Below are positions 3,731 through 13,119 of a stretch of 64,000 nucleotides of DNA, one piece after another. Below the pieces are notes generated by a model. The model had not been told where the DNA came from and ran no database searches. It saw only the letters and a program-made list of their open reading frames with translations. Position 1 is the first letter of the stretch; each line of letters opens with the position of its first letter. This DNA comes from an uncultured Paracoccaceae bacterium (GTDB lineage: Bacteria > Pseudomonadota > Alphaproteobacteria > Rhodobacterales > Rhodobacteraceae): assembly GCA_947503765.1 (NCBI GenBank), contig CANNFA010000004.1:62001-126000 (forward strand). The letters run 5' to 3'. The position numbers and the translations under genes were made by a program.

Positions 3731-6250
3731 CTAGCCGTCTGTCCTGATCCGCGCGTTGGAGGGGTCATAGGGGCTGTCCGGGGCGATTTCGGCGGGCCAC
3801 AGATCGCCCATGATCCGCACCTTCAGCCGCGTGCCCGGTTCCGCCAGATCGGGCCGGACATAGCCCATGCCGATGGATTTGCCGAACGCCGCCGACCAGC
3901 CGCCCGAGGTCAGCCGCCCGACGCGGTCGTCGCCGTGATACAGCGCCTCGCGCCCCCAGGGGTCGGCGTCGTCCGGCCCGTCGATCAGCAATGTGACACA
4001 GCGCGAGCGGATCCCCGTCTCCTGCATCGCCTCCTTGCCGTGGAAATCCTTGTCCAGATCGACGAAGCGGTCCAGCCCGGCCTCCAGCGGGGTGGCGTCG
4101 CGGCCCAGCTCGGTGCCGAAGGCGCGGTAGGATTTTTCCTGCCGCAGCCAGTTCTGCGCCCGCGCGCCCACCGGTTTCAGCCCGTGCGGTTCGCCAGCCT
4201 CCATCAGCCGGTCCCACAGGTAGTTCTGCATTTCCATCGGGTGATGCAGTTCCCAACCCAATTCGCCGGTATAGGCCACGCGGATGGCGCGGACCGGGCA
4301 CATGCCCAGCTCGATCTCGCGGCAGGACAGCCAGGGGAAGCGCTTGTTCGACAGCAACGTCGCCGGATCGGCGTCCCTGGCGATCCCCTTCAGCACGTCG
4401 CGCGATTTCGGTCCGGCGATGGCGAAGGCGCCCCATTTGGTGGTGACATTCTCGATCCCCATCCAGTTGGCGGGGCCGGCGTTCTTCGCCCACCAATCCT
4501 CTTCCGCCTTTGTCAGGAAATCACTGTCATACGCCTCCCAGGCGCCGGCCGAGACGAGGTAATACTCGTCCTCCGCCAGCCTCACGATGGTGTATTCGCT
4601 GCGCGTGGTCCCCGCATCGGTCAGCGCGTAGGTCAGGTTGATGCGCCCGACCTTCGGCAGCCTGTTGCAGGTGAACCAGTCGAGGAACGCGGTCGCCCCC
4701 GGCCCGAAGACCCGGTGCTTGGCAAAGGCCGTCGCGTCGATCAGCCCGGCGCCTTCGCGGATCGCGCGCGCCTCGGCCTCGGCATATTGCCACCAGCCGC
4801 CGCGCCGGAACGACCGTGCATCGTGGTCGAACCCCTCGGGCGCGTCCGCAGGCCCGTAGTAATTCGGCCGCTCCCATCCGTTCACGCAGCCGAACTGCGC
4901 GCCCAGCGCCTTTTGCCGGTCATAGGCCGGTGCGGTGCGCAGGGGCCGGCAGGCGGGGCGTTCCTCGTCGGGGTGGTGCAGGATGAAGACGTGCTCATAG
5001 CATTCCTCGTTCTTGCGCGCGGCATATTCGGTGGTGATCCAGGGGCCGAAACGCTTGGGGTCGAGCGACGCCATGTCGATCTCAGCCTCGCCCTCAACCA
5101 TCATCTGCGCCAGGTAATACCCGGTGCCGCCGGCGGCGGTGATGCCGAAGGAAAACCCTTCGGCCAGCCACATGTTGCGCAGCCCCGGCGCCGGGCCGAC
5201 CAGCGGATTGCCGTCGGGGGTATAGCAGATCGGGCCGTTGAAATCGTCCTTCAGGCCCAGATCCTCGGTGCTGGGAACCCGGTGGATCATCGACATGTAT
5301 TCCTCTTCGATCCTTTCCAGATCGAGCGGGAACAGATCGGCGCGGAACCCCGCGGGCACCTCGTATTCGAACCGCGCCGGCGCGCCCCGTTCATAGGGGC
5401 CGAGGATCCAGCCCTTGCGTTCCTCGCGCACGTACCACTTGGCGTCGGCATCGCGCAGCACCGGATGTTCGGGATTGCCCGCGGCGCGCCATTCGGCAAG
5501 GGCGGCGTCGGGTTCGGTGACGATATACTGATGTTCCACCGGAATCGCGGGCATCTTGATGCCCAGCAGCCGCGCGGTGCGCTGCGCGTGGTTGCCGGTC
5601 GCGGTGACGACATGTTCGGCGGTGATGGTCGCGGTTTCATCCGACGCCACCAGGTTTCCGCCCTTCTCGATCATCCTTGTGACGGCGACCTTCCAGGCCG
5701 ACCCGTCCCAGTGATAGCCATCGACCTGCCAGCGCCGCTCGATAACCGCGCCGCGCTGGCGCGCGCCCTTGGCCATCGCCTGGGTCACGTCGGCGGGGTT
5801 GATATAGCCGTCGGTGGGATGAAGGATCGCGCCTTTCAGATCCTCGGTGCGCACCAGCGGCCAGCGTTCCTTGATCTGCGCCGGGGTCAGCCATTCATGC
5901 GGAATGCCGACCGTTTCGGCGGTCGAGGCATAAAGGCGGTATTCGTCCATCCGCGCATCGGTCTGCGCCATGCGCAGGTTGCCGACCACCGCGAAGCCGG
6001 CATTGAGGCCGGTCTCTTCCTCCAGCATCTTGTAGAACCGGACCGAGTAATCGTGGATGTGGCTGGTCGCATAGCCCATGTTGAACAGCGGCAGCAGACC
6101 GGCGGCATGCCAGGTCGAGCCGGCCGTCAGCTCGTCCCGCTCCAGCAGCATGACATCGGACCAGCCGGCGCGGGCCAGGTGATAGGCGATCGAGGCGCCG
6201 ACGGCACCGCCGCCGACCACCAACGCTTTGACATGGGTTTTCATCGGCAT
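3731..6250 (-). CDS. FAD-dependent dehydrogenase with GcvT domain, dimethylglycine dehydrogenase-like
   Basis: An 839-residue fusion: N-terminal DAO-type FAD oxidoreductase (dinucleotide motif VVGGGAVGAS at residues 11-20), a middle FAO_M segment (about 385-440), and a C-terminal GcvT aminomethyltransferase-type tetrahydrofolate domain (from about 450). The motif LTAGSTWHAAGL contains His48, at the position where dimethylglycine and sarcosine dehydrogenases attach flavin covalently. Such enzymes oxidise N-methyl groups (dimethylglycine or sarcosine) and pass the one-carbon unit to tetrahydrofolate; in marine Rhodobacterales they belong to glycine betaine catabolism. Which N-methyl substrate is used cannot be told from the sequence, and no other betaine gene is nearby. 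MKTHVKAL, two codons in, is an alternative start. Confidence 0.88.
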   Translation of the reverse strand: MPMKTHVKALVVGGGAVGASIAYHLARAGWSDVMLLERDELTAGSTWHAAGLLPLFNMGYATSHIHDYSVRFYKMLEEETGLNAGFAVVGNLRMAQTDARMDEYRLYASTAETVGIPHEWLTPAQIKERWPLVRTEDLKGAILHPTDGYINPADVTQAMAKGARQRGAVIERRWQVDGYHWDGSAWKVAVTRMIEKGGNLVASDETATITAEHVVTATGNHAQRTARLLGIKMPAIPVEHQYIVTEPDAALAEWRAAGNPEHPVLRDADAKWYVREERKGWILGPYERGAPARFEYEVPAGFRADLFPLDLERIEEEYMSMIHRVPSTEDLGLKDDFNGPICYTPDGNPLVGPAPGLRNMWLAEGFSFGITAAGGTGYYLAQMMVEGEAEIDMASLDPKRFGPWITTEYAARKNEECYEHVFILHHPDEERPACRPLRTAPAYDRQKALGAQFGCVNGWERPNYYGPADAPEGFDHDARSFRRGGWWQYAEAEARAIREGAGLIDATAFAKHRVFGPGATAFLDWFTCNRLPKVGRINLTYALTDAGTTRSEYTIVRLAEDEYYLVSAGAWEAYDSDFLTKAEEDWWAKNAGPANWMGIENVTTKWGAFAIAGPKSRDVLKGIARDADPATLLSNKRFPWLSCREIELGMCPVRAIRVAYTGELGWELHHPMEMQNYLWDRLMEAGEPHGLKPVGARAQNWLRQEKSYRAFGTELGRDATPLEAGLDRFVDLDKDFHGKEAMQETGIRSRCVTLLIDGPDDADPWGREALYHGDDRVGRLTSGGWSAAFGKSIGMGYVRPDLAEPGTRLKVRIMGDLWPAEIAPDSPYDPSNARIRTDG

Positions 6251-6545
6251 GGCCCTTCGGATCCGTTCGCGCCCTAGGTTGCAGAGAATCCGCGGCGGCG
6301 GCGAGGGGCAGCCGACATCTGGGATAGAAAAAGCGACATTCGCGGTTTGGCGACGGATGCAATTCGTATCGCAGGACGCTTTGCGCGCGAGTGACCGGCA
6401 TTGCCGAAATGGCGATCAAAAATATCACGAACGCGAAAAATACATGGCCGAAGCGCAAGCCCAACCCGCAAACCGCTGGCATAAAGAAACAATTTCTGGC
6501 AAATGATCAAAAAAACAAAAGCAAACCCAGAGGCAGTGGTTTCGC
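6251..6545 (+). other. Divergent intergenic region upstream of the Hint gene
   Basis: 295 bases between the divergent dehydrogenase and Hint genes. The right half is clearly richer in A/T (runs of A around 6417-6445 and 6500-6530) than flanking coding DNA. A weak promoter candidate is TTGCCG (6401-6406), 16-base spacer, TATCAC (6423-6428). AGAGG lies about 14 bases before the Hint ATG, a weakly spaced ribosome site. No RNA gene or riboswitch was recognised. Confidence 0.35.
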
Positions 6546-7511
6546 ATGGTCTACAATATCAGTGAGGCCTCCGGTACGTTTACCGGTGGCGGGCAAGGCG
6601 GCGTCGCCAACTGGACGTTCGACGCGACGCTTGCCGACCTGACGATCACCGGCGATTTCGATTACGACGGCAACCTTGACGGGCTTGGCGATGGCGAGGC
6701 GGCGGACGGCTATACGTTCAGCGCGCTGAGCACCACCGATTACGGCACGCTGACCTACAATACGACGACGGGCGAATTCACCTTTGTCATCGACAAGGCC
6801 GCCGTGATCGCGTCGGGGTCGGACCAGACGGTGACCTTTGTCGTCACCGGCTTTGACGGCAGCGACAGCGACGACGACCTTGTCACGATCAACATCGCGA
6901 TCTGCGTCCAGCGCGGCACCCTGATCGAGACCGGGCGCGGCCCGGTGGCGGTGGAAAGCCTGACGGCTGGCGATCTTGTCCTGACACGGGATTCCGGGCT
7001 GCAACCGGTGCGCTGGATCGGCTCGCGCCGGATGAACGCGGCCCAGCTTGACCGCGCACCCGAGATGCGGCCGATCCGCATCCGCGCCGGCGCGCTTGGC
7101 CCGGAATGCCCGGACCGCGACCTTCTGGTGTCGCCGCAGCACCGCGTCCTGCTGACCGGCTGGAAGGCCGAACTGTATTTCGGCGAGCCCGAAATCCTTG
7201 TGCCGGCCAAGAGCCTGGTGAACGATTCCAGCATCGTGATCGCCCGCGATACCGTGGATGTGGAGTATTTCCATGTCCTGTTCGACCGGCACGAGATCAT
7301 GATGACCAACGGCGCGCCGACCGAAAGCTTCTTTCCCGGCGCCTACGTGATGGATGCGCTGGACCGCGCGGTGATGGACGAGCTGTGCGCGATCTTCCCC
7401 GAGCTTGCCGCCGATCCCGAAGGCTTCGGCCCCGCCGCGCGGATGTCAGTCAAGCATTCGGAGGCCGCCGTGCTGCGCGCGGCGGCGCCGGACGCGGCCC
7501 GTCTGCAATGA
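6546..7511 (+). CDS. Hint (hedgehog/intein) autoprocessing-domain protein with short acidic passenger
   Basis: 321 residues. Residues 1-119 form a Gly/Thr/Asp-rich beta passenger resembling VCBS or cadherin-like repeats (DFDYDGNLDGLGDG, later GFDGSDSDDDL) without a Sec signal peptide, a pattern seen in type I-secreted proteins. At residue 120 a Cys begins a bacterial Hint domain: CVQRGTLIETGRGPVAVESL, then GDLVLTRD, the DLLVSPQHRVLL block (His199) and YFHVLFDRHEIM, ending near ESFFPGAYV. The Cys takes the place of the nucleophile used for N-S acyl shift in Hint domains. There is no C-terminal His-Asn and no extein, so it is not an intein. The passenger contains a single lysine (Lys84). The stop overlaps the ATG of the acyltransferase gene, so the two are probably co-translated. 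Autocleavage and export are inferred. Confidence 0.85.
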   Translation: MVYNISEASGTFTGGGQGGVANWTFDATLADLTITGDFDYDGNLDGLGDGEAADGYTFSALSTTDYGTLTYNTTTGEFTFVIDKAAVIASGSDQTVTFVVTGFDGSDSDDDLVTINIAICVQRGTLIETGRGPVAVESLTAGDLVLTRDSGLQPVRWIGSRRMNAAQLDRAPEMRPIRIRAGALGPECPDRDLLVSPQHRVLLTGWKAELYFGEPEILVPAKSLVNDSSIVIARDTVDVEYFHVLFDRHEIMMTNGAPTESFFPGAYVMDALDRAVMDELCAIFPELAADPEGFGPAARMSVKHSEAAVLRAAAPDAARLQ

Positions 7512-9388: not shown

Positions 9389-10375
9389 TTACACCATCGA
9401 CGGCACCACGAGGTCCGGCGGGCGGTGGCCGTCGGCGTATGTCTTGATGTTGACGATCACCTTCTCGCCCATCTCGGCGCGGCCCTCGCGGGTGGCGGAT
9501 CCCATATGCGGCAGCAGCACCACGTTGTTCAGCTCGCGCAGGCGCGGGTTGATCTGGGCGCCGCGCTCGAACACGTCCAGACCCGCGCCGGCGATTTCCT
9601 GGTTGCGGAGCATCCGGGTCAGCGCGTTCTCGTCGATCACCTCGCCGCGCGAGGTGTTGACCACCACGGCCGACGGCTTCATCAGCTTCAGTCGCCGCGC
9701 ATTCAGCAGGTGGAAGGTCGACGGCGTGTGCGGGCAGTTCACCGAGATGACATCCATCCGGCTGACCATCTGGTCGAGCGATTCCCAGTATGTCGCCTCC
9801 AGCTCGGTCTCGATCTCGGGGCGCAGGCGCTTGCGGTTGTGGTAATGGATCTGCATCCCGAACGCCTTGGCCCGCCGTGCCACGGCCTGCCCGATCCGCC
9901 CCATCCCGAGGATGCCCAGCCGCCGGCCGCCGACGCGCCCGCCCAGCATCGCATTGGGGGCCCAGCCGGCCCAGCTTCCGGCCTGCATGATCGCCAGCCC
10001 CTCGGGAATGCGGCGGGTCACGGCAAGGATCAGCGCCATGGTCATGTCGGCGGTGTCCTCGGTCACGACGCCGGGGGTGTTGGACACCAGAACGCCGCGC
10101 TGCCGCGCGGTGGCGACGTCGATATGATCGACGCCGGCCCCGAAATTCGCGATCAGCTTGAGCTTGTCGCCCGCCTGCGCCAGCAGCCCCTGGTCCACGT
10201 TGTCGGTGATCGTCGGCACCAGCACGTCGGCCCGGCGCATCGCGCTGGCCAGGTCGTCGCGGGAAAACGGGCTGTCATCGTCGCGCAATTCCACGTCGAA
10301 CAGCTCTTTCATCCGGGTTTCGACCACTTCGGGCAACCGTCGCGTAACGACAACACTCAGGCGCTCTTGGACCAT
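9389..10375 (-). CDS. D-2-hydroxyacid dehydrogenase (glyoxylate reductase-like)
   Basis: 328 residues, normal for the family of NAD(P)-dependent 2-hydroxyacid dehydrogenases (glyoxylate, hydroxypyruvate reductases). Visible: IANFGAGVDHIDV, NTPGVVTEDTADMTMALIL, the Rossmann motif LGILGMGRIGQAVARR, VNTSRGEVIDENAL with the catalytic Arg region, GLDVFE and LLPHMGSAT with the catalytic His. The substrate is not fixed by sequence; GyaR-like glyoxylate reductase is the closest type by memory. The PemK/MazF-like gene follows. Confidence 0.88.
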   Translation of the reverse strand: MVQERLSVVVTRRLPEVVETRMKELFDVELRDDDSPFSRDDLASAMRRADVLVPTITDNVDQGLLAQAGDKLKLIANFGAGVDHIDVATARQRGVLVSNTPGVVTEDTADMTMALILAVTRRIPEGLAIMQAGSWAGWAPNAMLGGRVGGRRLGILGMGRIGQAVARRAKAFGMQIHYHNRKRLRPEIETELEATYWESLDQMVSRMDVISVNCPHTPSTFHLLNARRLKLMKPSAVVVNTSRGEVIDENALTRMLRNQEIAGAGLDVFERGAQINPRLRELNNVVLLPHMGSATREGRAEMGEKVIVNIKTYADGHRPPDLVVPSMV

Positions 10376-10505: not shown

Positions 10506-11018
10506 ATGAGTCGCATCAAACGGGGCGCTTGCGCCGCGGTACTGGCCGTGGCGGCGGTTTTCTGCGCGATGGCCGCGGTCGCGGAGGATGATCGCGGGCC
10601 GGTCACCAACCTGCCGCTGCCGCGCTACGTGTCGCTCAAGGCCAGCGAGGGCAACGTGCGCCGCGGCCCGTCGCTCAGCCACCGGATCGACTGGGTGTTC
10701 AAGCGCCGCGACATGCCGCTTCAGATCGTCGGGGAATACGGCCATTGGCGCCGGGTGCGCGACCGGGACGGCGCCGGCGGCTGGGTGCATTACTCGCTGC
10801 TGTCCGGGGTGCGGACCGTCCTGATCGAGCAGGACATGCTGCCGCTGCTGATGAAACCCGATCCCAGGTCGCCGGTGACCGCCCAGCTTGAAATCGGCGT
10901 GATCGCCGAGCTGGACGAGTGCGAGCGCGGCTGGTGCCGGGTCTCCGCCCACGGATATCGCGGCTGGGTGCCGTCGGAAACGCTTTGGGGCGTCGATCCG
11001 GCCGCGTCCGGGGACTAG
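10506..11018 (+). CDS. Exported SH3-domain protein
   Basis: 170 residues. Signal peptide at 1-26 (basic start RIKRG, hydrophobic core, cut near AVAEDD). Then two bacterial SH3-like segments: YVSLKASEGNVRRGPSLSHR with WVFKRRDMPLQIVGEYGHW, and a second from about residue 105 ending CRVSAHGYRGWVPSETLWGV. Proteins like this are periplasmic and probably bind cell-wall or partner peptides; no catalytic residue is expected. It is divergent from the dehydrogenase. Confidence 0.8.
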   Translation: MSRIKRGACAAVLAVAAVFCAMAAVAEDDRGPVTNLPLPRYVSLKASEGNVRRGPSLSHRIDWVFKRRDMPLQIVGEYGHWRRVRDRDGAGGWVHYSLLSGVRTVLIEQDMLPLLMKPDPRSPVTAQLEIGVIAELDECERGWCRVSAHGYRGWVPSETLWGVDPAASGD

Positions 11019-11113: not shown

Positions 11114-12134
11114 ATGAAGCATGAGACGATAACCGCCCCGGCCGCCCCGGTACTGGCCCGCCCCGCCGCCGCGCCGGCGCATGCGCTGATCATCCACGCC
11201 GCGCGCGACTGGTTCCGCCCGCTGGAGGCGGGCGATCACGAATTCTTCCGCAAGCTGACCCGGCAGGCCGCCGCCAAGGGTCTGCCCGGCCGCATCGTCG
11301 AGGCCGGCAGCAGCGCCTCGCGGCTGATGCTGGAGCAGGGGCAGGGACAGGGCCATGTCCACCTGATCGTCGGCGGCGCGCCGGGCTACGGCCCCGGACG
11401 GCTGCATGCGCGCCCGGCCCATGTCTGGGGCTTCTGGTATCTCGACGAGATCGGCACCGGCTGGCATTCCAGCCTGCGCCTTGCGCGGTTCCACGCCGCC
11501 GAAATGGATGCCGACAAGGCCGCGTATTTCTTCAACGGGGTCACCGGCTACATGCTGCGCGAGAACGTGTCGAACCGCCCGCAGGAGCCGCGCCTGCCGC
11601 ATCCGCTTCAGGCGGCTGCGGCAACGATCTTCTGCCAGTGCGAGGAGGCCGGCCCCGAGCGGTCGCATTTCCTGACGACCGAGCAGATGCTGCGCGTCAC
11701 GGCGACCACCGCGTCGGGCGCGCGCGTCTACCTGAAACCGCATCCCGATCAGCCCAAGCTGGAACGCAAGCGGCTGATGGACATGGCGGCCGATTATCCC
11801 AACGTCACGGTCACCGACGCGTCGGTCCACGATCTGGCGCAGGCCGCCGCGGTGGTGGTCACGCAGAATTCGACCGCCGGGTTCGAGGCGCTGATGCAGC
11901 GCAAGCCGGTCGTCACCTGCGGCAAGTCCGATTACTGGCACGCCACGCTGACCCCGAAGACCGAGAACGACCTGCGACCTGCGCGACGCATTGCTGTACG
12001 GCGCCGAGGAAATGGCGGAATTTCCGTTCGACAAGTACCTGTACTGGTTCCTCGGCCGCAATTGCCTGGAGCCCGCGAAGCCGGAATTCGTGCGCCGGGC
12101 CTGGGCGCGGATCCGCGAAAAGGCGATGCTCTGA
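11114..12134 (+). pseudogene. Capsule polysaccharide synthesis/export-type protein, frameshifted
   Basis: From ATG 11114 the frame encodes a Capsule_synth (PF05159)-like protein: VYLKPHPDQPKLERKRL, then DLAQAAAVVVTQNSTAGFEA, RKPVVTCGKSDYWHATL, as in KpsC/KpsS-type sugar transferases. At 11969-11982 the 7-mer GACCTGC occurs twice in tandem. Removing one copy restores a frame that continues DALLYGAEEMAEFPFDKYLY to a stop at 12134, giving 337 residues. As written, the frame instead runs on with an Arg/Pro-rich tail to 12211. The capsule C-terminus is clearly the real continuation. It may be a broken gene, a reversible slip, or an assembly/sequencing artefact. Confidence 0.78.
11969..11982. repeat. 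7-bp tandem duplication (GACCTGC x2) causing a frameshift
   Basis: Two direct, adjacent copies of GACCTGC at 11969-11975 and 11976-11982. With a single copy the codons read GAC CTG CGC GAC GCA and the capsule-type protein stays in frame. A 7-base addition is not a multiple of 3, so it shifts the frame by one. Slipped-strand duplication is the obvious mechanism. Confidence 0.85.
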
Positions 12135-12207
12135 CATTTCGCGGTTGGCCCGCGTGCGCCGCTCTGGCAAGCAGCGGCCGATGCCGCGGGTCAATGCAGG
12201 ACCGACG

Positions 12208-13119
12208 ATGAGCCAAAGCGATTCCCACAGGCTGAACCTGTCGGCCGGGCTGATGTCCGCCGGGGTCGCGCTGGTGCTGGTGCTGGCCAAGCTCTGGGCG
12301 CTGGCGGCCACGGCGTCGCTGTCGATCGCCGCCAGCCTTGCCGACAGCGCGCTGGACCTGATGGTATCGCTGGCCGGGCTGGCCGCCATCGTCTATGCCG
12401 CCAAGCCGGCCGATGACGACCACGCGTTCGGCCATGCGTCGGCAGAGGACCTGGCGGCGCTGGGCCAAACGGCGGTGATCCTCGCCTCGGCCGCGGTCAT
12501 CGCCTGGGGCGCGGTGGCGCGGCTGCTGTCCGGCCCGCCCTCGCCGATCACCTCCGAGGGGGCCGGCATCGCCGTCATGGTCCTGTCCATCGTGCTGACT
12601 GCCGGGCTGGTCCTGTGGCAGCGGCGGGTGGTGCGGGCGACCGGCAACAAGGTGGTGGCCGCCGACCGGCTGCACTACCTGGGCGACCTCGTGCCGAACG
12701 TGGGCGCGATCCTGGCGCTGGCGGCCTCGGCGCTGTTCGGGCTGGGGCAGGTGGACAGCATCGTGGCGCTGGGCGCGGCGGCGATGCTGGCGGTCGGCGC
12801 GCTACGGATCGGCAAGGGCGCGTGGGACGCGCTGATGGACCGCTCCGCCAGCCCCGAGATGATCGCCGGGATCGCGCGCATCGCCGCCAGCTATCCGGGG
12901 GTGCACGGCTATCACGACCTGAAGACGCGCAGTTCCGGCTCGGTGGTGTTCGTCAACCTGCATATCGAGCTGGACGGCAGCCAGTCGCTGGACGCCGCCC
13001 ATGCCATCGGCGCGGGGCTGCGCCGGGCGATCCTGCGCGCCTATCCGCAGACCGACGTGATGATCCACAAGGACCCCGTCGGCGTGACGCCGCACCCCGA
13101 CGATCCGCGCCGGACCTGA
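12208..13119 (+). CDS. Cation diffusion facilitator family transporter
   Basis: 303 residues with about six transmembrane helices and a soluble C-terminal domain. Motifs: SLADSALDLMVSL (TM2 metal site, Asp-x3-Asp), HAFGHASAEDLAAL, RLHYLGDLVPN (TM5 site, His-x3-Asp), and a cytosolic HDLKTRSSGSVVFVNLHIEL segment. The family exports divalent metals (Zn, Fe, Mn) by proton exchange; which metal is not told by these motifs. It follows the broken capsule gene but is not obviously related. Confidence 0.88.
   Translation: MSQSDSHRLNLSAGLMSAGVALVLVLAKLWALAATASLSIAASLADSALDLMVSLAGLAAIVYAAKPADDDHAFGHASAEDLAALGQTAVILASAAVIAWGAVARLLSGPPSPITSEGAGIAVMVLSIVLTAGLVLWQRRVVRATGNKVVAADRLHYLGDLVPNVGAILALAASALFGLGQVDSIVALGAAAMLAVGALRIGKGAWDALMDRSASPEMIAGIARIAASYPGVHGYHDLKTRSSGSVVFVNLHIELDGSQSLDAAHAIGAGLRRAILRAYPQTDVMIHKDPVGVTPHPDDPRRT

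Follow-up and report, generated by a model that had tools for sequence, protein, structure and literature searches.

A recent 7-bp tandem duplication that breaks the frame of a putative KpsC/WbbB-like glycosyltransferase gene in a marine Paracoccaceae bacterium

Short tandem duplications that break a reading frame are common in bacteria. Spontaneous tandem duplications of the pneumococcus, in the type 3 locus, in cap8E/wchA and in tts, are brought together in a passage of PMC4022640 that refers to Waite et al. (2001, 2003). When an insertion is no longer than 9 bp, the reversion to be expected is about 1e-5 at most (PMC4022640). On the side of the enzymes, the titles of PDB entries name the catalytic Asp nucleophile of three proteins that figure below: D160 in KpsC, D232 in WbbB and D193 in KrkA.

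The window, by which we mean the whole stretch of 64,000 nucleotides that was analysed, comes from contig CANNFA010000004.1 of a marine uncultured Paracoccaceae bacterium. Positions 11955-11994 read ...GAACGACCTGCGACCTGCGCGACGC... (11958-11993: ...ACCGAGAACGACCTGCGACCTGCGCGACGCATTG...), and Tandem Repeats Finder places there, on the + strand at 11968-11983, a 16-bp array CGACCTG-CGACCTG-CG (period 7, 2.3 copies, 100% match). An earlier note on this DNA had described the same pair in another register, as GACCTGC doubled at 11969-11982; the sequence and the repeat finder agree that its coordinates and its description were right. Doublets of this kind are not rare. The window holds 11 perfect 7-bp doublets, and third-order Markov sequences hold 9.6 +/- 3.1, so that the idea of a statistically unusual CGACCTG doublet had to be dropped. 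What is noteworthy about the doublet is its effect on the reading frame, not the doublet itself.

From its ATG at 11114, the affected gene as it stands runs to a stop at 12211 (11114-12211, + strand) and encodes 365 residues of a PF05159-type GT-B protein, while the frame that continues the family stops at 12134. Residues 1-288 of the shifted product are native and are followed by 77 unrelated, Arg/Pro-rich residues, which replace the final 49 of the intact protein. The displaced native C-terminal tail (11976-12134, + strand; 52 codons at 11976-12131 plus the stop) lies out of frame with the start and is conserved in relatives. For the latter, tblastn was run against 29 relative loci, 26 of them distinct (the two collections had three in common). 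In all the distinct loci except one (25/26; the exception, L051, is taken up below) the upstream part and the tail lie in the same frame, which confirms that the 7-bp duplication breaks the gene. The claim of the earlier note that about 50 residues are lost holds as well, the native tail frame ending at 12134. The closest loci, those of Pseudoruegeria sp. HB172150 and of two Maritimibacter metagenome-assembled genomes (MAGs), have just one unit there, CGACCTG or CGAGCTG, and match the tail at 73-75%; L031, for example, is single-copy (GAACGACCTGCGCGATGC), and CGACCTGCG, likewise single-copy, occurs in close relatives. In a family-wide scan, the window genome had the only close homologue with a match that ends early (at position 282 of 328). 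Independently, a codon-usage HMM derived solely from the window puts the frame switch at 11974/11975 and scores the displaced tail in its native frame at a log-odds of 18.9. The G+C content of the three codon positions tells the same tale: in its old frame the tail (0.65/0.40/0.87) resembles the upstream part of the gene (0.70/0.50/0.89), and as now read (0.86/0.63/0.41) it is not gene-like.

What the gene encodes can be judged from its family and from the predicted fold of an intact relative. The window protein matches PF05159 (Capsule_synth) with an E-value of 1.8e-11 and 44.5 bits, above the gathering cut-off of 20, over about 95 residues of the 310-position profile (hmmsearch spans profile positions 179-265); the intact L031 protein scores 36.1 bits. 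The AlphaFold2 model of the L031 protein (pLDDT 90.3, pTM 0.87) was searched with Foldseek, and its top 24 matches are all KpsC, WbbB or KrkA, the best with E-values of 2e-8 to 5e-7, at TM-scores of 0.40-0.55 and 11-17% identity. Since these three are the best PDB matches of the model, the protein is taken as KpsC/WbbB-like GT-B. Fold and Pfam match together make the product of the gene at 11114 a candidate stand-alone KpsC/WbbB-like GT-B transferase, probably an enzyme involved in surface sugars. The description of the gene as 'capsule-type' in the earlier note thus stands as a PF05159 family label, but the gene sits outside the kps-type genes of its genome. Its neighbours are not kps genes: an SH3 protein gene and a CDF transporter gene flank it. 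Longer KpsC/KpsS-like PF05159 genes free of internal stops are found on another contig of the genome (G000, C6:5328-9552). This stretch on C6 is the likely main capsule-type locus, and the gene at 11114 accordingly does not represent it. The matches on C6 were considered as rescuing paralogues and set aside, these proteins being of the longer KpsC/KpsS-like sort, and no paralogue of the subfamily of the 11114 gene that might rescue it was found in the same genome at E <= 1e-3.

The consequences for the protein have been followed on predicted structures. In the L031 model the C-terminus is made of helices at residues 275-289, 294-304 and 314-327. In the window protein the last two (294-304 and 314-327) are gone and the one that precedes them is mostly foreign sequence; its model is disordered from residue 299 on, with pLDDT < 50 over residues 299-365. 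The tail is, in other words, predicted to have lost its fold. In GT-B proteins the helices at the C-terminus are packed onto the remainder of the fold, and for that reason the shifted protein is probably inactive or unstable. Some residual activity is possible, because the upstream 288 residues, which include the most conserved part of the family, are intact.

It might be supposed instead that the duplication has made a functional C-terminal variant, with the shifted protein at work and its translation coupled to that of the gene downstream. The next gene, for a CDF-family cation efflux transporter (12208-13119, + strand), has an ATG that overlaps the shifted-frame stop by 4 bp (ATGA); that the new Arg/Pro-rich tail would overlap the next gene had been correctly noted before. 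For 77 codons the shifted frame meets no stop, and its end in just this ATGA, at 12208-12211, might by accident couple translation to that of the transporter. Such an ending readily arises by chance, and we regard the overlap at 12208 as a coincidence. With a new tail that is predicted to be disordered, has the codon-position G+C already given and is absent from all relatives, we give hardly any credence to a working variant.

How old is the frame shift? Between the window and L031, dN and dS are 0.20 and 0.91 for the tail and 0.26 and 0.68 for the upstream part; against L031-L033 the dN/dS of the tail is about 0.2. The displaced tail is 67-75% identical in amino acids to the closest relatives (73-75% to L031-L033), and its distance from relatives is no greater than that between non-sister relatives. 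On these comparisons purifying selection acts on the displaced tail just as it does upstream, with no sign of relaxation. An old frame shift is rejected, since the dN/dS of the tail betrays no decay. The shift is recent; with constraint on the tail equal to that upstream, the duplication either arose a very short time ago or is absent from the organism. The second branch is the sequencing or assembly artefact, under which the unit is single in the living strain and the gene intact, and the undecayed tail, together with a sample of one genome, is what speaks for it. The quality of the assembly speaks against it. The assembly has 30 contigs and 3.98 Mb and is listed as 100% complete. A scan for frame breaks covered 464 kb of the same genome (the window and 400 kb of further stretches) with 138 same-strand frame changes, and the gene at 11114, with an upstream frame that overruns by 238 nt, is the only clear break among them; the other three flagged changes overshoot by just 52-55 nt, as ordinary gene overlaps do. 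A sole clear break in 464 kb indicates a clean assembly and favours a real mutation. An insertion of 7 nt is also atypical of homopolymer error, and short-read assemblers collapse tandem copies more often than they expand them, which counts against an artefact too. We therefore consider an artefact unlikely, and the duplication is probably present in the living strain and not merely in the assembly.

Of 395 family genomes, 65 have a homologue of the 11114 gene at E <= 1e-30, which makes this an accessory gene. It lies in a recurrent neighbourhood: a 2-hydroxyacid dehydrogenase gene on the - strand (9389-10375 in the window, the divergent neighbour of the conserved block), an SH3 protein gene on the + strand (10563-11018, for a bacterial SH3-domain protein), the transferase gene (+) and usually then the CDF transporter gene (+) follow one another in many Rhodobacteraceae genera. 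Further upstream in the window, at 6546-7511, lies a gene for a Hint-domain protein (PF13403, E 1.4e-59). In L051, a Rhodobacteraceae MAG (CATOSB010000001.1), the orthologous gene is split (5645-6796) by about 1.2 kb with a DDE transposase gene (PF05598, PF01609), an independent disruption. In a congener, G001, no match to the 11114 gene was found; there the SH3 and CDF genes are on separate contigs (L097 and L098), beside other genes. The L051 insertion and the absence from G001 suggest that loss of the transferase gene is tolerated.

The earlier note had also raised a reversible on/off switch of a surface polysaccharide; this would be phase variation in which the 7-bp unit is gained and lost by turns. 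Precedents exist: in the pneumococcus, spontaneous duplications within capsule genes reportedly control phase variation (work cited in PMC4022640), and E. coli K96 has kpsC frameshifts that are reversible (PMC13410964). The site itself does not look like a contingency locus. There are only two copies, 7-bp doublets are at chance frequency in the window, the repeat number does not exceed chance, the relatives are single-copy with no repeat tract and no tract or copy variation at the site in the loci compared, and the gene is outside the kps locus; for an insertion of 7 bp, moreover, reversion is expected at ~1e-5 or less (PMC4022640). The switch is accordingly unsupported, and we think it very unlikely. 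That the duplication flips appreciably in the population, switching a stand-alone marine Rhodobacteraceae glycosyltransferase, for example under phage pressure, is an extension that we likewise think very unlikely.

We are left with ordinary strain-level loss, the other proposal of the earlier note and the best fit to a recent shift in a clean assembly: a recent spontaneous 7-bp duplication has probably disabled a dispensable transferase gene. The array consists of two 7-bp units and 2 bp, as left by slippage at the CG microhomology in CGACCTG-CG, so that the event probably began with replication slippage at the 2-nt CG found at either end of that sequence. The extra 7 bp shift the frame of the stand-alone KpsC/WbbB-like GT-B transferase gene; by prediction the product is deprived of the final two helices and most of the preceding one, and gains 77 mostly disordered residues. 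Reversion by loss of one copy is possible in principle, presumably at low frequency. If all this is real, the strain has very recently been deprived of a probable enzyme of surface sugars, encoded in a conserved neighbourhood, and, with the L051 insertion and the absence from G001, provides a further sign that the transferase gene is repeatedly discarded. Such a finding is of use in strain annotation and in recognising mutations that come with domestication or with escape from phage.

The described systems resemble this locus up to a point. The retaining Kdo transferases KpsC, a PF05159 protein, and WbbB (PDB 8fux, 6mgc, 5fa1) and the Kdo transferase KrkA (PDB 9yfx) share the GT-B fold with the protein encoded here; unlike them, it has a single domain and its gene is outside a kps locus. 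The frameshifts in E. coli K96 are likewise in a KpsC-type gene and arise by slipped-strand events (PMC13410964), but there the main gene of capsule initiation is hit, at a homopolymer, and revertants were isolated; here the unit is a 7-bp doublet. In the capsule duplications of the pneumococcus, as the cited passage describes them, a short tandem duplication likewise breaks a polysaccharide gene and could revert by loss of a copy. In the pneumococcus it is the main capsule gene that is affected, and reversion is reported in that passage, whereas in the Paracoccaceae bacterium nothing points to reversion and the gene that was hit stands alone, away from the kps locus.
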